Source of the DNA: Candidatus Harrisonbacteria bacterium
Lineage (GTDB): Bacteria > Patescibacteriota > Minisyncoccia > UBA6257 > 1-14-0-10-40-38
Assembly (NCBI GenBank): GCA_023245035.1
Contig: JAHFLD010000003.1
Span: 1 to 55,735 of the forward strand
Direction: 5' to 3'
DNA length: 55,735 nucleotides
In this document: positions 24,475 to 43,017 of the stretch, in pieces
How positions within the stretch are numbered: the stretch's first letter is position 1
Layout: the number at the start of each line of letters is the position of its first letter
Made by a program: the position numbers and the translations under genes
Notes under the pieces: model-generated
What the model was told of the DNA's origin: nothing
Seen by the model: only the letters and a program-made list of their open reading frames with translations
Database searches by the model: none

Positions 24475-24963
24475 ATGCGCAAAAATTACTTATTAATCTT
24501 TGGCCTGGTTTTGCTCTTATTTACTGTGGCACCTATGGTTTCCAGCGCCGCTTTTGGCAATCTATTGCCTAATTGCGACCCGGCCGGTCCGCTTAGCACT
24601 GGCGGGTGCGGGCTTAAATCGTTTTTGGAATTTATCAACAACATTATTGTTTTTTTGATGAAGGCGACCTTCTTTGTGGCTCCGCTCTTTATAGTTTACG
24701 GCGGGTTTGTTATGCTTACCTCCGGAGGTAATAGTGGCAAGTTTGATCAAGGAAAGGACATCATCAGAAGCGCGCTCGTGGGCATCGTAATCGCGCTCAT
24801 CTCCTATCTTTTGATAACGGTTCTTTTTAGGATTCTGCAGGTCACTTTTCCTTTTCAGCAAAAGGAGATTGATATTACAAATACTAATACTCCTTCAGCT
24901 AATCCTAATTCGAGTTTTGGGGGCGGGAGTGGGGGTGGCGGCGGTTTTGGCGGTGGATGGTGA
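24475..24963 (+). CDS. VirB2/TrbC-like pilin protein, paralogue 1
   Basis: The product (162 aa) has a signal peptide (about residues 1-26), two membrane helices flanking a GGNSGKFDQGKDIIRSAL loop, and a Gly-rich tail ending GGGFGGGW. This two-helix layout is that of VirB2/TrbC-type pilins of type IV secretion systems, though no VirB4, VirB6 or VirD4 gene is present here. It is the first of four tandem paralogues and the only one with the Cys-containing N-terminal segment and Gly-rich tail. It ends in TGA. Confidence 0.78.
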   Translation: MRKNYLLIFGLVLLLFTVAPMVSSAAFGNLLPNCDPAGPLSTGGCGLKSFLEFINNIIVFLMKATFFVAPLFIVYGGFVMLTSGGNSGKFDQGKDIIRSALVGIVIALISYLLITVLFRILQVTFPFQQKEIDITNTNTPSANPNSSFGGGSGGGGGFGGGW

Positions 24964-24978
24964 TATATTTATATTATC

Positions 24979-25305
24979 GTGATTACTTTTTTAAAAATTT
25001 TTGTTTTAAAGGCCTTGGCGGAAACTGGTTCTGTGGGCGGCAATTCCGCCATACAGTTACCCAATCCTTTGGGTATTAGTAGTTTGGAGGCGCTTTTGGA
25101 TCGGATTGTTACGGGACTCATCTATATAGCTATTCCGGTGGTTACGCTGATGATTTTGATTGGCGCTTTTAAGATGCTTTTTTCCGGCGGGAGTTCCGAT
25201 AAGTTTAGTGAAGGCAAGGACACTATTGTTTATGCTCTAATTGGTTTGGTGGCGGTTCTGCTGGCTCGGGGGGTCGCCGATATTATCGTCTTTATTTTCC
25301 GCTGA
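24979..25305 (+). CDS. VirB2/TrbC-like pilin protein, paralogue 2
   Basis: The product (108 aa), starting at GTG, has a hydrophobic leader (to about residue 15), then two membrane helices around a SGGSSDKFSEGKDTIVYALI loop that matches paralogue 1. It is the most compact pilin-like copy. It stops with TGA 3 nt before the next ATG, so the three genes are closely coupled. Confidence 0.75.
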   Translation: MITFLKIFVLKALAETGSVGGNSAIQLPNPLGISSLEALLDRIVTGLIYIAIPVVTLMILIGAFKMLFSGGSSDKFSEGKDTIVYALIGLVAVLLARGVADIIVFIFR

Positions 25306-25308
25306 TTT

Positions 25309-25710
25309 ATGCGTTTGATTCTTATTTCGATTTTGGGAGTGCTTGGTTTGGTTTTGTTCGTGCCCGCTCTTTCCCAGGCGGAGACTGGGATTGTATTGCC
25401 GACAGCTGTGGCAACTCAACTGGCACAGGATAATTTCGGTTTTTCGGTTCCAGCGGGTACCGGCGACATTCGTACCAAGGAAGATGTAGTGCGGGTGGTT
25501 AATCGGGCGATTAATATTCTGTTCGGTTTTTTGCTTTTGCTGGCGGTGGTTTTTTTGTTAATCGCGGCTTACTATTTTCTTTTTGCCGGCGATGATTCCG
25601 GCAAAATCGAAACCGCCAAGACTATGATTCGTTATACGGTTATCGCTATTTTAATAGGGGGGTTATCTCGCGCCATCGTTTCGCTAACGCTCTATCTGAT
25701 AGAACTTTAA
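25309..25710 (+). CDS. VirB2/TrbC-like pilin protein, paralogue 3
   Basis: The product (133 aa) has a cleavable signal (about residues 1-24, ending LSQAE), a short outer segment and two helices. The loop FAGDDSGKIETAKTMIRY occupies the same position as in its neighbours. The word FGFLLLLAVVFLL is shared with paralogue 4, so those two are the closer pair. Confidence 0.75.
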   Translation: MRLILISILGVLGLVLFVPALSQAETGIVLPTAVATQLAQDNFGFSVPAGTGDIRTKEDVVRVVNRAINILFGFLLLLAVVFLLIAAYYFLFAGDDSGKIETAKTMIRYTVIAILIGGLSRAIVSLTLYLIEL

Positions 25711-25797
25711 TTCTGGGGATACACTTTGGGTTGGCTATCGTTTATAATGGGACTAATTGTTTGTTAAAGGTCGTTTTGGCTGTAGGCATGTCTTTCA

Positions 25798-26160
25798 ATG
25801 AATATCTTCAAGAAAATTACTAGTTTCGCACTGCTTACTATATCCGGATTGGCTCCGCTTGTTGGTTTGGCCCAGAGTGTTGGCGGGGTTCCGAATGTAC
25901 CGCCGCTTTCCGGGGGCGTTAACGTTTTGGATATCATCACCAAGGTTATTAACTATGCCTTTGGTTTTCTTCTCCTGCTAGCAGTCGTCTTTATTATCTA
26001 TGCCGCCTATCTTTATTTGATTGGCGACGATAAGGAAAAGGCGAAGAAGCTTATTATTGACGCGGTGTGGGCGATTGTAATCGGCGCTTTAGCGCGGGGT
26101 ATTGTTTTTATCGTTTCCAATTTGATCGGCGTTAATTCAAGTTCGGTGACTGGCGGGTAA
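25798..26160 (+). CDS. VirB2/TrbC-like pilin protein, paralogue 4
   Basis: The product (120 aa) has a signal peptide (about 1-25), a Pro/Gly-rich segment and two helices around LIGDDKEKAKKLIIDAV. An 87-bp gap containing TATAAT (25743-25748) precedes it, so it may have its own promoter. A perfect 20-bp terminator stem follows, closing the pilin block. Confidence 0.75.
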   Translation: MNIFKKITSFALLTISGLAPLVGLAQSVGGVPNVPPLSGGVNVLDIITKVINYAFGFLLLLAVVFIIYAAYLYLIGDDKEKAKKLIIDAVWAIVIGALARGIVFIVSNLIGVNSSSVTGG

Positions 26161-26178
26161 GTCTGGGTTTCCTGGTTT

Positions 26179-26223
26179 TAATCATAAAAATCTCCGATGT
26201 TATATCGGAGATTTTTATGATTA
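26179..26223. terminator. Perfect 20-bp-stem terminator
   Basis: Bases 26179-26198 and 26204-26223 are exact reverse complements around a 5-nt loop. It ends the pilin operon. Read on the minus strand it also follows the truncated tRNA-Leu 3' copy. Confidence 0.9.
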
Positions 26224-26224
26224 G

Positions 26225-26415
26225 TGCCCTCGAGAGGATTTTCACTACTCGTCCTTCGCTATACCTCGGACTGCGCTTTAAAAACCCTCGGTTTTTAATA
26301 TTTTCCGACACGGAAGGGACGTGGTTACTTCCCTTCCGATCCATCCCTCGTTCAAATCCTCTCAAAAACAAAGATTACAAAGAAACCGGATGATACCGGA
26401 GATTTTTTTTAATTG
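26225..26415 (-). mobile_element. tRNA-Leu-associated structured mini-element
   Basis: Reading in tRNA direction (minus), the intact tRNA-Leu is followed by its terminator, then by an insert and then by a second copy of the last 17 nt of the tRNA (26241-26225) and a related terminator. The insert begins at 26364 with GAGAGGATTTGAAC, the reverse complement of the host tRNA T-arm, and ends with GAGTAGTGA just before the 17-nt copy. Inside are a 9-bp hairpin (26311-26319 with 26330-26338) and a TCGG/CCGA stem around AAAATATTAAAAA (26308-26288). The same order of parts is found at tRNA-Pro. No protein is encoded. The mechanism is unknown. Confidence 0.65.
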
Positions 26416-26497
26416 TGCCCTCGAGAGGATTTGAACCTCTAATCCTTTCGGAACGTGGTCCTAAGCCACGCGCGTATGCCAGTTCCGCCACGAGGGC
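26416..26497 (-). tRNA. tRNA-Leu (UAG)
   Basis: The minus strand folds as an 82-nt tRNA with a long variable arm, acceptor GCCCTCG/CGAGGGC and anticodon loop CTTAGGA, giving anticodon UAG. The 3' CCA is not encoded. Its T-arm and 3' end are the source of the copied pieces in the adjacent mini-element. Confidence 0.95.
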
Positions 26498-26573: not shown

Positions 26574-27476
26574 TCATTTATTTTTTCCGTGGAATGCCTT
26601 GTGGATGTCTTTAAGTCCCTTGTTGGTTACGTGCGTATAGATTTGAGTGGTGCCGATGTTTCTGTGTCCGAGGAGCTCCTGTACGGAGCGCAAGTCGGCG
26701 CCGTTGATTAATAAGTCGGTGGCGAAGAGGTGTCTTAGTTGATGGGGAGTTACGTGCCTTGGGATTCCGCTTACTGTCGCGTAATGGCTAACCAGGCGTT
26801 CAACGGCGCGGGGTGTAATGCGCCCGATAACTTGAGGAATTTTGGATTTTTTGAGACTAATAAACAGGGCTTCTTCCACATCACCACGCAAGGCCTCGTA
26901 GTTTTTTAGAGCGTTGCGGGCGCTATCGGATAGGAAGACCAGGCGAATTTTTCCTCCCTTGCCGCGGACGCTGATCTCACCACGCTTGAAATCGAGATCG
27001 CGGTTGAGGCCGCAGAGTTCCGCGAGGCGGAGGCCGGTAGAAAAGAGCATTTCCAAAATGGCGCGATCGCGGGCGGCGCGCAGAGTGTTGCCGCGCGGGG
27101 CTTTGAGCAGGCGATCCAGATCGTGGTGTTCCATGATTTCAATTTGCCGCTGTTCAACCCTGGGAAGCTCTATCTTGTCCGGCGAAATTGCCGGGTATCC
27201 TTTTTTGATTAGGTATTTCAAAAAATTGCGGATGGCGATGACATAGTAGCTTTGAGTGTTTTTTTTAAGCTCAGCGCCATTTACGCGTTCGCGGGCGAGC
27301 GCGAGCCGAAAACGGCGAATGTTTTCTTCGGTTAGGTCTTTGATGGTGTTGATTTTTGTTTGGGCAATAAAGCGTTGCAGGTAGCGCTCGTAGTTGTCGC
27401 GAGTTTTAACCGAACGGTTTTTTTCGATCTCCAGATATTCGCAATATTCCTTGAGGGCTTTTTCGATCTCGTTCAT
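26574..27476 (-). CDS. Tyrosine recombinase, XerC/XerD-like
   Basis: The product (300 aa) has an N-terminal SAM-like core-binding domain (1-100) and a catalytic domain with Arg150 (TGLRLAEL), a lysine in GKGGKIR (173-176), His245-x-x-Arg248, His271 (LLGHRN) and the nucleophile Tyr280. The full catalytic set is present and the length is that of chromosomal Xer proteins, so it may be the single Xer that resolves chromosome dimers. Its position right beside the tRNA-Leu mini-element also makes it a candidate to act on that element; this is inference. Confidence 0.9.
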   Translation of the reverse strand: MNEIEKALKEYCEYLEIEKNRSVKTRDNYERYLQRFIAQTKINTIKDLTEENIRRFRLALARERVNGAELKKNTQSYYVIAIRNFLKYLIKKGYPAISPDKIELPRVEQRQIEIMEHHDLDRLLKAPRGNTLRAARDRAILEMLFSTGLRLAELCGLNRDLDFKRGEISVRGKGGKIRLVFLSDSARNALKNYEALRGDVEEALFISLKKSKIPQVIGRITPRAVERLVSHYATVSGIPRHVTPHQLRHLFATDLLINGADLRSVQELLGHRNIGTTQIYTHVTNKGLKDIHKAFHGKNK

Positions 27477-27548: not shown

Positions 27549-27572
27549 AAAAAACCCCGCACGAGCGGGGTT
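27549..27572 (-). terminator. Terminator of SPFH cassette A
   Basis: AACCCCGC (27553-27560) pairs with GCGGGGTT (27565-27572), overlapping the stop codon of the small gene, with TTTTTTATTTT following on the minus strand. The same terminator is found at 29518-29539. Confidence 0.85.
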
Positions 27573-27993
27573 AGGGAAAGACCAAAAGTTTTGCTGGGCA
27601 GTTGATGCCATTCAAGCGAAACTTCCGATCTAGTAGCTTGATGTTTGGGTTGCCAACGGGTGATCTAATCGTTCTCCCATTGGAGAAATCAAAGTTCACC
27701 ATGTCAGGAGACTTGTAGTCGAATTGCAAACTAAAATCACTTGCCTCCGGCAAAATGAGCCACGGAGTCCATTCAGATTCACGAATCTGAAGTTGAATCT
27801 CCTCACCCCTGTGGAGCGTGATGTACGCTGGCGGGGGCGGGGATATCACTTCTCGGGATTCCGGCTGGGATCTTGGGAGGTCTTGGATGACCTTGAACCC
27901 CCAAATACCGATTGAAATAACCGAAATGAAGAGCAGGAGCTTGATGAGTTTTCCTGAAACCCTGAAGCCGACTGTTTGCGGGCCGTGGGGCAT
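27571..27993 (-). CDS. Small membrane-anchored partner of SPFH protein, copy A
   Basis: The product (140 aa) has one membrane helix (about residues 18-38), a Pro-rich stalk (SPPPPAYITL) and a beta-rich outer domain. Its SD AAAGGAG lies within the last codons of the upstream SPFH gene, and the start follows that stop by 2 nt, so translation is probably coupled. The stretch EIQLQIRESEWTPWLILPE is identical to copy B (29538-29960), while the C-terminal third is strongly diverged. I do not recognise the domain. Confidence 0.72.
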   Translation of the reverse strand: MPHGPQTVGFRVSGKLIKLLLFISVISIGIWGFKVIQDLPRSQPESREVISPPPPAYITLHRGEEIQLQIRESEWTPWLILPEASDFSLQFDYKSPDMVNFDFSNGRTIRSPVGNPNIKLLDRKFRLNGINCPAKLLVFP

Positions 27994-27995
27994 GG

Positions 27996-29348
27996 CTAAT
28001 CTCCTTTTTTGCTACTCTTGTCCGCGAGATACTTGGCGAGTGCGGCGGAGGTAAGGTCAGTACCCTTTGCCTCCACGATTGTGGTGCTTGGTTTTTCTTT
28101 CATTCCCAGCGTCACTTCAATACCAGTCAAGATTCCTTCTCGTATTCTGGGATCATCCCAGTCGGGTCCGGCTTTGATTTTTGCTTTCTCAACCAACTCG
28201 CCATATTTTTTGCTCAATTCTTCGGCGGCGTCGGCGGTGTTTTCCGCCAGGCGACGCTTTTCGATGGCTTCCCTGACTTCCTTGGAGAAGTTGATTTCGG
28301 TCAAGTCAAATTCCATCACTTCAATACCAAATTGGCGTTCAACTGCGGATGGCGATCCGCGTTCCACTGCCAGCAATTCAGTAACTAGATTTCTATATTC
28401 CGCGTATTTCCGGGGACAATCTTCTGGCTTCCAACCACACCTATTGTGCGGTGTCTCGCTCAAGCGCAGGACGCAGTTGATGAAGAGCTTTAGAGCTTCT
28501 CGATTCTCAATGAAGTCGTCTACCAGAGAGGCGCCAGCGATTTCTCCCAGAGCGCTCGCGATACTACCGCGCAATCCCTTGGTTGTGGTTTCCGGACTCA
28601 TCTCAACAAAAAGCACCTTGCCTTTTTTGTTGACGATATCCGGAGACGGCCGTTTGCGCAGATTGCCTTTGACGGTGATCGCCACCTGTCCAAATTTTTG
28701 TCCGTCCTTGCCCTTGCCGCCGGTCGTTACACTAACTTCGATTGGGTCGGTGTCTACTTGGTAGTCCAAATACTCTACCGCATCAATGAAGGGGATCAGG
28801 AAGTAGGGCCCGCCTTCGGACAAGTATCCTTTGAGACGCATTCCGAAGCGAGTAACCACCCCAAATTGCGCCGGTCGGATGATGACGAGGCCTTTGGCGA
28901 GGATGATGGTAAGGAAGAGTCCAATAAATCCAATCCATGAAAAGATTGCTCCAGGTTCTTCACCTTCTAGTAGACTTACTATCCAAAAAATCGCTGCTCC
29001 AGCGATCGCATAAACCAGTAAAACCGGAATGAAGTTGAAACCCGGCGCTCTTTGCGCTTGTCGAGCTTTCTTTTTCGCCTGGCCGATCAAGTCATTGAGT
29101 TGATCAATCTCGGTTTGGGGCGAAGCGGTTATAGCTATTGCCGGCTGATCGAATAGCGTTTTGAGTACTTTTAGACCTAATGCTAAGCAGAGACCAATGC
29201 CGATGACGGTGGATATTGCGATAACTTTGTCTTCCCAGAGCTTGTAGCCAGCAAAGATTATTGCCGTTATAGCGACGAGCCAGCAACAGAGGTACGAGGC
29301 GTGTTTGGCGGTTTCTCGGAAATCTTGCTTGAACTTTCTAGTGAACAT
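27996..29348 (-). CDS. Multi-pass SPFH/band-7 domain protein, copy A
   Basis: The product (450 aa) has two membrane helices (about 20-65), a short polar linker with QAKKKARQAQRAPG, two more helices (about 107-165) and then an SPFH domain beginning RPAQFGVVTRFG. The domain carries an insert with three cysteines around PHNRCGWKPEDC, conserved in copy B. A charged, coiled tail follows. SPFH proteins form membrane microdomain scaffolds; HflK/HflC-type members regulate FtsH. Copy B and ftsH lie just upstream. AAAGGTAGG precedes the ATG. A TTGACA (29444-29439) upstream may be the promoter, but its -10 is weak. Confidence 0.82.
   Translation of the reverse strand: MFTRKFKQDFRETAKHASYLCCWLVAITAIIFAGYKLWEDKVIAISTVIGIGLCLALGLKVLKTLFDQPAIAITASPQTEIDQLNDLIGQAKKKARQAQRAPGFNFIPVLLVYAIAGAAIFWIVSLLEGEEPGAIFSWIGFIGLFLTIILAKGLVIIRPAQFGVVTRFGMRLKGYLSEGGPYFLIPFIDAVEYLDYQVDTDPIEVSVTTGGKGKDGQKFGQVAITVKGNLRKRPSPDIVNKKGKVLFVEMSPETTTKGLRGSIASALGEIAGASLVDDFIENREALKLFINCVLRLSETPHNRCGWKPEDCPRKYAEYRNLVTELLAVERGSPSAVERQFGIEVMEFDLTEINFSKEVREAIEKRRLAENTADAAEELSKKYGELVEKAKIKAGPDWDDPRIREGILTGIEVTLGMKEKPSTTIVEAKGTDLTSAALAKYLADKSSKKGD
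28711..28909. repeat. 199-bp identical block shared with 30714-30912
   Basis: These 199 bases, inside SPFH copy A, are identical to 30714-30912 in copy B. Flanking parts of the two genes differ substantially. Similar near-identical blocks occur around 29019-29130 versus 31011-31122 and in the small partner genes (around 27750-27890 versus 29717-29860). The alternation of identical and diverged blocks points to gene conversion or to selection for divergence in only some regions. Confidence 0.9.
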
Positions 29349-29517
29349 GGCCTACCTTTCTTTGTATTTCTTTTTCAAAGAACTCGAATCCTTACAGGGG
29401 ACTCGCTGTTTATAGAATTCACCTAAATATATAGAGCTGTCAATATTTGATTCGTTTTTGGTTTTGCGGGCGAGCTTTTTGGCATCCTCATCTTTTTTTT
29501 GACTGTTGGCGTAATAA

Positions 29518-29539
29518 AAAACCCCGCACGAGCGGGGTT
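29518..29539 (-). terminator. Terminator of SPFH cassette B
   Basis: AACCCCGC (29520-29527) and GCGGGGTT (29532-29539) form the stem. The U-tract lies on the minus strand. It overlaps the stop codon exactly as in cassette A. Confidence 0.85.
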
Positions 29540-29960
29540 AGGGAAAGATCACGAACTTTGCGGGCGATTCAATTCCACGCAGACGAAATGTTCTGTCGGG
29601 AAATCTACCAAGAGCAGCTTCTCGATTGGATGACACGATAGTCATCCCATTCAAAAATCCAAAAGTTATCGTGCCATTCTTGCTTGTTCGTAGATCGAAC
29701 TTGCCCGATTCCGGCAAAATGAGCCACGGAGTCCATTCAGATTCACGAATCTGAAGTTGAATCTCCTCACCCCTGTGGAGCGTGATGTACGCTGGCGGCG
29801 GGGGCGGGGATATCACTTCTCGGGATTCCGGCTGGGATCTTGGGAGGTCTTGGATTTGCAGAAATCCACATATTCCAACGATGAAGATTCCACAAAATAA
29901 CATAAGTTTGGTGAGTTTTCCAGAAATCTGAAATCCAGTGGATTGCGGATTGTGTGGCAT
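29538..29960 (-). CDS. Small membrane-anchored partner of SPFH protein, copy B
   Basis: The product (140 aa) is the paralogue of 27571-27993: membrane helix at about 18-36, a five-proline stalk, an identical central segment and a diverged C-terminal region. The same SD inside the SPFH stop region precedes it. The small gene and the SPFH gene were evidently duplicated together, which argues that the two products work as a pair. Confidence 0.72.
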   Translation of the reverse strand: MPHNPQSTGFQISGKLTKLMLFCGIFIVGICGFLQIQDLPRSQPESREVISPPPPPAYITLHRGEEIQLQIRESEWTPWLILPESGKFDLRTSKNGTITFGFLNGMTIVSSNREAALGRFPDRTFRLRGIESPAKFVIFP

Positions 29961-29962
29961 GG

Positions 29963-31372
29963 CTAATCTCCTTTTTTGCCACTCTTGTCGGTGACGTACT
30001 TGGCAAGCGCGGCGGATAGCAAATCACCACCTCTGACGTCAACACTGGTTGCGTTGCTGGTTGCGATGGTTGTTGCTGTTGGCTTTTCTCGGAGTCCCAA
30101 CATCACGCCAATTTCGAGTAGTGCCGTCTTTCGTACTTCCGGATCATCCCAGTCTTTGCCAGCTTTTATCTTTGCCGCTTCAATTAGGTTGTTGCGTCTA
30201 GTGCTCAATTCCTCGGCGGCGTCAGCAGTACTTTCCGCCAGGCGGCGCTTTTCGATGGCTTCCATGACTTGCTTGGAGAAGTTGATTTCGGTCAGGTCAA
30301 ACTCAATCACTTCAATACCAAATTGGCGTTCAACCGCTGAGGTCGATCCACGTTCCAGTTTAAGGAGTTCAGTGATTAGTTGGCTGTGTTCCACGTACTT
30401 TGACAAGCAAATTTCTGGTTTCCAACCACAGGTGCCGTGCGGGGTCTCGCTCAATCTTAAGACGCAGTTGATGAAAAGCTTCAAGGCCTCGCTATTTTCA
30501 ATGAAATCATCTACCGACGAGGCGCCGGCGACTTCCCTGATAGCGCTGGAAATTTTACCTTCCAACCCATCGGTGATGGTCTTAAGATTGATCTCAATAA
30601 AGAGGACCTTGCCGTTGTCGTTGGGGACGTTGGGAGACGGCCGTTTACGCAGATTGCCTTTGATGGTGACCGTTGCTTGACCAATCTTCTTTCCAGCCGT
30701 TGCTGCCGCAGTGCCCTTGCCGCCGGTCGTTACACTAACTTCGATTGGGTCGGTGTCTACTTGGTAGTCCAAATACTCTACCGCATCAATGAAGGGGATC
30801 AGGAAGTAGGGCCCGCCTTCGGACAAGTATCCTTTGAGACGCATTCCGAAGCGAGTAACCACCCCAAATTGCGCCGGTCGGATGATGACGAGGCCTTTGG
30901 CGAGGATGATGGCAAGGATTATAATTCCGATACCGATTTGGCCCAAAAACTTGGGCTTTAGGTATTGATTGGCCAGCCAGAGACTCCCCAAAATCACGAT
31001 GGCGTAAACCAGCAAAACCGGAATGAAGTTGAAACCAGGCGCTCTTTGCGCTTGTCGAGCTTTCTTTTTCGCCTGGCCGATCAAGTCATTGAGTTGATCA
31101 ATCTCGGTTTGAGGCGAAGCGGTTGATGTTGTCTGTGAAGTTGAAGCCGGACTTCCGGTTGGCAACTTCTTCTTGAGCAGTGTGTTGAGCAGAGTAGCTA
31201 CGAAGACAAAGCAGGCGCTAAGAACAGTAACCGCGGCGATCGCGATTGGGATGTTGTCCCAGAACCTTCGGCCCAGGTAGAGCAGAGTCGCGACGGCGAG
31301 GATGGCATAGGCCACCCAGGCGAGGCGTCTCGTGACCACCTTGAGATCTTTCTTGAATTGAGCACCGAACAT
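29963..31372 (-). CDS. Multi-pass SPFH/band-7 domain protein, copy B
   Basis: The product (469 aa) has the same layout as copy A: two helices, polar linker, two helices, then SPFH domain. Membrane segments 1-2 and the linker start differ strongly from copy A, while the SPFH core start is identical. The cysteine insert reads PHGTCGWKPEIC. The tail ends in the same KKGD. It is transcribed away from ftsH, whose ATG lies about 240 bp from its own start, so the two may share a regulatory region. Confidence 0.82.
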   Translation of the reverse strand: MFGAQFKKDLKVVTRRLAWVAYAILAVATLLYLGRRFWDNIPIAIAAVTVLSACFVFVATLLNTLLKKKLPTGSPASTSQTTSTASPQTEIDQLNDLIGQAKKKARQAQRAPGFNFIPVLLVYAIVILGSLWLANQYLKPKFLGQIGIGIIILAIILAKGLVIIRPAQFGVVTRFGMRLKGYLSEGGPYFLIPFIDAVEYLDYQVDTDPIEVSVTTGGKGTAAATAGKKIGQATVTIKGNLRKRPSPNVPNDNGKVLFIEINLKTITDGLEGKISSAIREVAGASSVDDFIENSEALKLFINCVLRLSETPHGTCGWKPEICLSKYVEHSQLITELLKLERGSTSAVERQFGIEVIEFDLTEINFSKQVMEAIEKRRLAESTADAAEELSTRRNNLIEAAKIKAGKDWDDPEVRKTALLEIGVMLGLREKPTATTIATSNATSVDVRGGDLLSAALAKYVTDKSGKKGD

Positions 31373-42675: not shown

Positions 42676-42747
42676 ACGGGCTGTAGTATACCGGTAGTAC
42701 GTACGCTTCGGGTGCGTATAGACTGGGTTCGATTCCCAGCAGCCCGA
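42676..42747 (+). tRNA. tRNA-Pro (CGG)
   Basis: The 72-nt sequence has acceptor CGGGCTG/CAGCCCG, anticodon stem TACGC/GCGTA with loop TTCGGGT (CGG) and T-stem CTGGG/CCCAG. CCA is not encoded. Its last 17 nt plus 49 nt downstream are duplicated 180 bp further on. Confidence 0.95.
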
Positions 42748-42796
42748 CAAAAATAAAAATAGCTAGCTTGTCTAGTTGTTTTTATTTTTATGGATT
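42731..42796 (+). repeat. 66-bp direct repeat: tRNA-Pro 3' end plus terminator (copy at 42911-42976)
   Basis: Bases 42731-42796 and 42911-42976 are identical over 66 bp. The repeat starts at tRNA nucleotide 57, just after TTC of the T-loop, and includes an A/T-rich hairpin (AAAAATAAAAA versus TTTTTATTTTT) that serves as terminator. The exact identity implies a recent event. Confidence 0.95.
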
Positions 42797-42927
42797 ATTT
42801 GGCTGGTAATCGAACGGGAAAGGGGTCGGGAAAACGGAAGTTTTACCGAGGCGGAAATATTAAAACCGCTGGGTTTTAAAACGGAGCGAGCGATAGCGAG
42901 TGAGTAGTGAGATTCCCAGCAGCCCGA
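42797..42927 (+). mobile_element. tRNA-Pro-associated structured mini-element
   Basis: The 114-bp insert (42797-42910) plus the 17-nt tRNA copy (42911-42927) is homologous to the element at tRNA-Leu. It begins with CTGGTAATCGAAC (42803-42815), 12 of 13 bases matching the reverse complement of the tRNA-Pro T-arm, and ends with GAGTAGTGA. Inside are an AAAAC/GTTTT hairpin (42831-42844) and a GCGG/CCGC stem around AAATATTAAAA (42851-42869). The corresponding stem in the Leu element is TCGG/CCGA, so its outer pair co-varies. No protein is encoded. Confidence 0.7.
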
Positions 42928-43017
42928 CAAAAATAAAAATAGCTAGCTTGTCTAGTTGTTTTTATTTTTATGGATTGTGCTGGGGTTATTTCTTATCTAG
43001 GGCTTAGATCTTTGATG

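Follow-up and report, generated by a model that had tools for sequence, protein, structure and literature searches.

A 55,735-nt stretch of Candidatus Harrisonbacteria bacterium (contig JAHFLD010000003.1, assembly GCA_023245035.1), hereafter the window, contains two copies of a short folded element, one at a tRNA-Leu gene and one at a tRNA-Pro gene. They very probably belong to a family of mobile elements of the Patescibacteria, about 100-140 nt long, non-coding, structured and copy-making, of which no description was found in the papers searched, most subscription papers and preprints lying outside that search. The copies open with a 5′ arm that is antisense to the target in which they sit, and they are flanked by a duplication of that target. 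Such an inverted copy of the host tRNA suggests a mobile element of a type not known before, one that brings along or picks up an address fitting each target.

An earlier note on the window had proposed, from the tRNA-Leu copy, a non-autonomous element holding inverted and direct copies of its host's T-arm. Scans of the family bear this out: the covariance search of related genomes that the note had suggested returned further copies, mostly tied to tRNA genes and with T-arm matches above chance. A covariance model, built from six copies at first and rebuilt later for the phylum search, found 10-12 copies in the genome of the window; within its order, 23 of the 61 genomes searched together gave 99 matches, up to 15 each. 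In the phylum-wide sample, at least 30 of 381 genomes had matches with the rebuilt model, ten candidates being scored per genome. A pattern of the first hairpin (hp1) and its linkers matched at least 117 stretches in a species-level genome collection, and among the matches listed every informatively named one came from Patescibacteria. More than 150 copies were examined outside the genome of the window, and when the tRNAs of that genome were scanned, tRNA-Met, Asp, Gly and Arg proved to be followed by complete copies and other tRNAs by broken ones. Viral contigs, phage and plasmid collections gave no match to the element. With Rfam 15, only tRNA exceeded the gathering score in the window, and a permissive search to E = 1 at the loci holding six elements gave no relevant match, neither ribozyme nor intron.

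An antisense arm that follows the target

Most copies lie downstream of a tRNA on their own strand: 69 of 82 copies of the model-based set, at a distance of up to 400 bp, and 58 of 90 copies of the pattern-based set, whose search pattern made no use of tRNAs or T-arm pairing, at up to 450 bp; the random expectation, our estimate from tRNA density, is about 1.5%. Nearly all tRNA isotypes are targeted, and tmRNA as well. Several of the remaining model-based copies can be explained: the tRNA apparently contains a group I intron (L050, L099), the host gene is a tmRNA (L093), or a contig end intervenes. A few copies sit at other targets, which recur and for which the gene names are our reading of translations and DNA: the 3′ end of rpsI (L106, L189, L168, L227), the 3′ end of rpmG (L167), and the 5′ ends of lepA (L117, L214) and fusA (L087, L200) in antisense; in L055 the target is the antisense D-arm of a tRNA-Leu. 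At the non-tRNA targets, too, the gene end is restored by the duplicated segment.

The arm is about 9-14 nt long and antisense to its target across the insertion point. Of 15 positions, 12.1 matched the T-arm of the arm's own host in the model-based set and 9.2 those of other hosts, and the own host gave the better match in 68 of 69 copies; the same was true of 55 of 58 copies in a second, largely separate set (a few loci are common to both). The match per position is about 0.9 at T-loop nt 54-62 and drops to about 0.6 at nt 64-66, and the arms track unusual T-loops, for example GTCC and GTGCA. Non-tRNA sites follow the rule seen at tRNAs, the arm spanning about 7 nt on each side of the junction, as in CTGCAAA/TGGTGCA (rpmG), GACCCAA/CCCCATC (L194) and TGGTCGA/TATGAGC (lepA), where the slash marks the junction. 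At positions where the host and its duplicated copy differ, the arm agreed with the intact host in 338 cases, with the copy in 7 and with neither in 15; under an alignment biased towards the 3′ copy, the corresponding counts were 208, 115 and 62. Because the intact host prevails in both comparisons, the arm copies the intact target in antisense and did not evolve as a pairing partner within the stem of the element itself. The ends of the tRNA-Leu element can pair and close it, as had been proposed, but across the family the 5′ arms follow the intact host tRNA and not their own 3′ copy. The quality of the arm match showed no correlation with element age (rho 0.03), so no gradual improvement of the arm after insertion is seen.

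Insertion is into T-loops, mostly between tRNA nt 59 and 60. The 3′ end of the element, GTGARAT with variants GTTCGAT and GTAAAAT, replaces T-loop nt 53-59, and the host sequence resumes at nt 60; in its GTGAGAT form this end is a mimic of the T-loop's left half. The nonamer in which the earlier note expected copies to end, GAGTAGTGA, is only one version of this shared end. In the window it occurs three times against 0.12 expected, one occurrence being a chance match inside a gene, and by itself it is a poor marker in the genome, where three of five matches fall within apparent genes by chance. The target duplication measures about 20-100 nt and, because it extends past the gene end, the target gene stays intact. 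In the least diverged copies, the repeat takes in the terminator and stops at the arm or shortly within it (L062, 66 nt, 100%; L085, 73 nt, 99%; L150, 83 nt, 99%; L164, 101 nt, 98%). At the 5′ junction, some copies show microhomology, the arm having a few bases in common with the distal end of the repeat (GCTGG in L062, GGATT in L150, AAT in L156). Tandem units occur in L091 and, in genome G102, at tRNA-Arg and tRNA-Glu, the Arg array terminating in a truncated unit. CCA at the second tRNA end, which would mark copying from a mature tRNA, showed no clear excess (9 against 5).

Some further observations concern the sites themselves. The tRNA genes of L050 and L099 apparently contain group I introns, with AAGATACAGTC / GATATAGTC motifs upstream of the tRNA 3′ half. 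LAGLIDADG-like genes adjoin tRNA genes in L089 (555-1332) and upstream of tRNA-Asp in L144, and similar frames are found at several Patescibacteria loci. Three copies on different contigs (L223, L192, L206) all target the same repeat, ACTTTGGAGCTCGCACCCGTCCTCCGC, which is probably itself a dispersed element. In the genome of the window, L012 and L021 have tRNA 3′ ends duplicated in tandem downstream, without a complete element.

The folded core and the two copies in the window

The core consists of two or three hairpins with conserved linkers and covaries strongly. Over 84 copies, 93.4% of pairs were standard and double changes were found in 25 of 26 pairs, with 421 double-changed cells against 130 in shuffles; hp1 and hp2 alone had more than 98% standard pairs. 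GNRA occurred in 54 of 111 four-base hp1 loops. A second loop type, GCAAC, was found only alongside the linker type TGGRT, an association that common ancestry or a tertiary contact might explain. Judged from sequence, the covariation and the GNRA loops favour RNA as the folded molecule, but the wobble counts given below differ between the two sets. At tRNA-Pro genes in L048 (about 1354) and L115 (about 1339), minus strand, a normal copy is preceded in tandem by one with a circularly permuted core, CCCCCGTGTTGGAAAATA...GTGGGGGTCGGGGG. We also observed the core within larger multi-copy units at sites unrelated to tRNAs (L157, L161 and L195 in one genome, L220, L225, L171, L177), which have GGGATGAATG near the 5′ side or 3′-side hairpins such as CGCCTAATAYC...RTAGGACGA and possibly form a wider family.

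In the window (Table 1), the features described earlier for the tRNA-Leu element are all present, including the T-arm reverse complement, the hairpins and the second terminator. The region of this element folds better than 200 of 200 shuffles (z = -3.0). The direct copy of the tRNA-Leu 3′ end is likewise there, although the repeat is longer than had been described, traceable over about 40 nt at 88% identity and reaching into the second terminator.

Table 1. Positions of the two elements, their target genes and the adjacent recombinase gene in the window.
Feature	Position	Strand	Basis
tRNA-Leu (tag), target gene 1; T-loop insertion point between nt 59 and 60	26415-26497	-	ARAGORN, Rfam tRNA
Terminator-like spacer from tRNA end to element, first copy of duplicated target segment	26364-26414	-	Sequence; repeat of 40 nt, identity 0.88
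5′ antisense arm GAGAGGATTTGAAC, exact reverse complement of host T-arm GTTCAAATCCTCTC	26350-26363	-	Match 14/14
Hairpin hp1, 9-bp outer stem, after conserved linker GGGATGGATCGG	26311-26338	-	Fold; family covariation
Hairpin hp2, TTAAAAACC-GAG-GGTTTTTAA	26278-26298	-	Fold; family covariation
Hairpin hp3, GTCC...GGAC, variable	26251-26271	-	Fold; paired hp3 differences between related copies L053/L065
Element 3′ end GAGTAGTGA; family consensus ...GTGARAT	26242-26250	-	Sequence
Second copy of tRNA-Leu 3′ end, 18 nt, AAATCCTCTCGAGGGCAC, start of target duplication	26224-26241	-	Sequence
Second terminator-like hairpin	26175-26220	-	Sequence
tRNA-Pro (cgg), target gene 2	42677-42748	+	ARAGORN
66-bp direct repeat, first copy, T-loop through terminator	42731-42796	+	66 nt, identity 1.00
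Pro element, between the copies of the perfect 66-bp direct repeat	42802-42910	+	
5′ antisense arm GCTGGTAATCGAAC, near-exact reverse complement (13/14) of host T-arm GTTCGATTCCCAGC	42802-42815	+	Sequence
hp1 with GGAA loop, Pro element	42827-42848	+	Fold
hp2, Pro element	42860-42879	+	Fold
Pro element 3′ end GAGTAGTGA	42902-42910	+	Sequence
66-bp direct repeat, second copy	42911-42976	+	Sequence
Xer-type tyrosine recombinase, 300 aa, not counted as belonging to the element	26574-27476	-	Pfam PF00589, E 7e-40

Two neighbouring groups of genes were also observed. At 27571-31372 (minus strand), a two-gene module encoding a 140-aa protein and a 450-469-aa membrane protein is duplicated in tandem, and at 24475-26160 (plus strand) four small hydrophobic proteins of 108-162 aa stand in a row and resemble pilin-like secretion subunits.

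Spread between tRNA genes and the search for an enzyme

The elements spread between the tRNAs of one genome. The nearest core relatives lay within the same genome in 22 of 54 cases, against a shuffle mean of 4.3 and a maximum of 14, and at the same isotype in 5 of 64, against 3.7 by chance. In G009, the cores at tRNA-Asp and tRNA-Lys are 99% identical and their arms differ. Near-identical cores occupy the His, Arg and Glu tRNAs of G102, in tandem at two of them, and the whole downstream unit is common to tRNA-Glu(TTC) and tRNA-Glu(CTC). Two species of one genus, G132 and G145, have different tRNAs occupied.

The element itself contains no reading frame and no integrase gene, and no reverse transcriptase, integrase or HUH transposase tracks it in the genomes compared. 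Protein-family enrichment beside about 170 copies returned only ordinary conserved genes and, at six loci each, genes of the GIY-YIG type and LAGLIDADG-like genes, which lay outside the elements where these were inspected; no recombinase family was among them and no partner was suggested. Repetitive extragenic palindromic (REP) or IS200/IS605-type movement by a Y1 transposase was considered and rejected, no such enzyme being found in G000 (the genome of the window), G019 and G021 despite their 10-14 element copies.

Possible routes of insertion

The account we work with, which as a whole we think slightly likelier to be right than wrong, is an RNA-guided, copy-type insertion in which the target-antisense arm is renewed at each site and the enzyme acts in trans. 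The sense strand, probably as RNA, would fold into the core, and its arm would span the insertion point by pairing with the target's top strand. The 3′ end of the element, mimicking the left half of the target, would then be joined to its right half, and the other end would be joined at a nearby microhomology, giving rise to the target duplication. The arm would be renewed from the new target during or after joining. The enzyme would be supplied in trans; none was found among the families checked. For the separate parts our confidence is lower: we regard the case for an RNA intermediate as evenly balanced, and we would put the role of the arm as guide or splint neither above nor below that. 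A bolder version, in which the element is a self-addressing, small and possibly catalytic RNA whose arm guides insertion into the T-loop and is rewritten from each target, is a tentative proposal that we consider rather doubtful.

Several observations weigh against this account. It offers no explanation of how the arm is renewed. The covariance model includes the closing stem, so that the pairing counts for P0 are inflated, and the wobble counts expected to tell the folded strand gave 19 GT against 4 AC in one set and 10 against 10 in the other. The comparison of occupied and empty sites that the earlier note had called for yielded no clean empty site: of two 96%-identical tRNA-Ile genes in sister species, one is occupied and the other free, but the downstream DNA differs, and in the sister species G015 and G055 the flanks were too rearranged for clean sites. 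Among candidate enzymes, a Y1 transposase is present in 7 of 23 element genomes and 9 of 38 others, and a reverse transcriptase in 13 of 23 and 20 of 38, respectively. As there is no association, a reverse-transcriptase route is not supported, unless the enzyme was lost later or comes from a mobile partner.

This last result bears directly on target-primed reverse transcription of an element RNA, in the manner of short and long interspersed nuclear elements (SINE/LINE) or group II introns, which we consider unlikely. A fixed 3′ junction, a target duplication of variable length, 5′ microhomology and an RNA-like fold with GNRA loops are what such a retroposon would leave, but a reverse transcriptase is not always found where recent copies occur. 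Ten of the 23 element genomes, among them some of 99-100% completeness, lack an RVT_1 protein, and the genomes lacking a reverse transcriptase include G009, with its pair of 99% identical cores, as well as G017, G018, G002 and G029; supply in trans by a partner would remain compatible with this.

Less probable again, in our estimate, is movement as integron-cassette-like circular units, each combining a folded core and its arm with a tRNA 3′ end and terminator, and integrated at the T-loop by a Xer recombinase reading folded single-stranded DNA. The earlier note had compared the element to integron attC sites and pointed to the adjacent Xer gene. The topology does resemble that of a cassette array, with a folded site ending the unit, a 5′ strand able to pair with the 3′ flank, a regenerated flank, identical tandem units (L091 and G102) and a whole downstream unit shared by the two tRNA-Glu genes of G102, and a Xer gene is nearly universal. 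Nevertheless, the tRNA ends and terminators beside near-identical cores differ, as would not be expected of units that bring their own tRNA end, and rpsI, lepA and fusA are targets as well. The attC crossover G/TTRRRY was not found; the direct copy begins after T-loop nt 59, preceded by the element's GTGARAT. Self-complementarity of the R′′/R′ kind was not found either, the arm fitting the intact target and not an R′-like box of its own, even under the opposite alignment bias. The long target duplication and the lack of a tracking integrase and of a reading frame are further differences, and the attC-like reading is not supported. As for the enzyme, most genomes, with or without the element, have exactly one tyrosine recombinase, and in three element genomes the search for one found none. 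In the genome of the window the sole match is Xer-like, with PF00589 and SAM domains (no search aimed at IntI was made), and looks like the usual single housekeeping Xer; because it is the only tyrosine recombinase found there, its proximity to tRNA-Leu is probably accidental. Islands borne in tRNA genes by tyrosine recombinases share the sublocation in the tRNA and the gene end restored with a direct repeat, but they carry their own integrase and have a fixed target, whereas here one protein-free core lineage occupies many tRNAs and coding genes.

Template switching or tandem duplication at inverted repeats during replication, with no dedicated machinery, would make the junction-spanning arm a snap-back copy, as it can be read in L156, and would suit the 5′ microhomologies and the tandem tRNA 3′ ends of L012 and L021. 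We rate it a little lower still: accidents of this kind leave unexplained why one conserved cargo, with constant ends, lies at dozens of unrelated targets, and the covariation points to selection on a folded core. Finally, an ordinary conserved RNA gene or regulator accompanying tRNAs by descent, for instance as an antisense to the T-arm, would fit arms antisense to the intact host and the copies common to related species with paired hp3 changes (L053/L065), but it is very improbable given the patchy presence, the different tRNAs occupied in G132 and G145, the tandem units, the non-tRNA targets and the direct repeats, which contradict it as a full account and leave room for a secondary function in the host.

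RNA-guided insertion with a renewed arm, the account we prefer, has partial parallels. In group II introns, through the pairing of exon-binding and intron-binding sites (EBS-IBS), and in IS110, through its bridge RNA, a sequence encoded by the element pairs with the target around the insertion point, as the arm may do here. Those systems encode a reverse transcriptase or a recombinase, whereas the present element does not and has no match in Rfam; to our knowledge, their guides do not follow each new site within a lineage. SINEs and miniature inverted-repeat transposable elements (MITEs) are likewise short, non-coding, multi-copy, flanked by target duplications and dependent on a partner enzyme, but the element differs in its strongly covarying fold, and we know of no SINE or MITE with ends that hold an antisense copy of the target.

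If this account is true, the element would carry or acquire an arm complementary to each new target, its movement would be guided by nucleic acid in a way unmatched among the systems known to us, and a compact programmable inserter could follow from its enzyme. It would also show how mobile elements without coding capacity survive in the smallest of bacterial genomes while leaving tRNA genes unharmed. The family is a structured one, absent from Rfam and common in Patescibacteria, where it confounds the annotation of tRNA ends.
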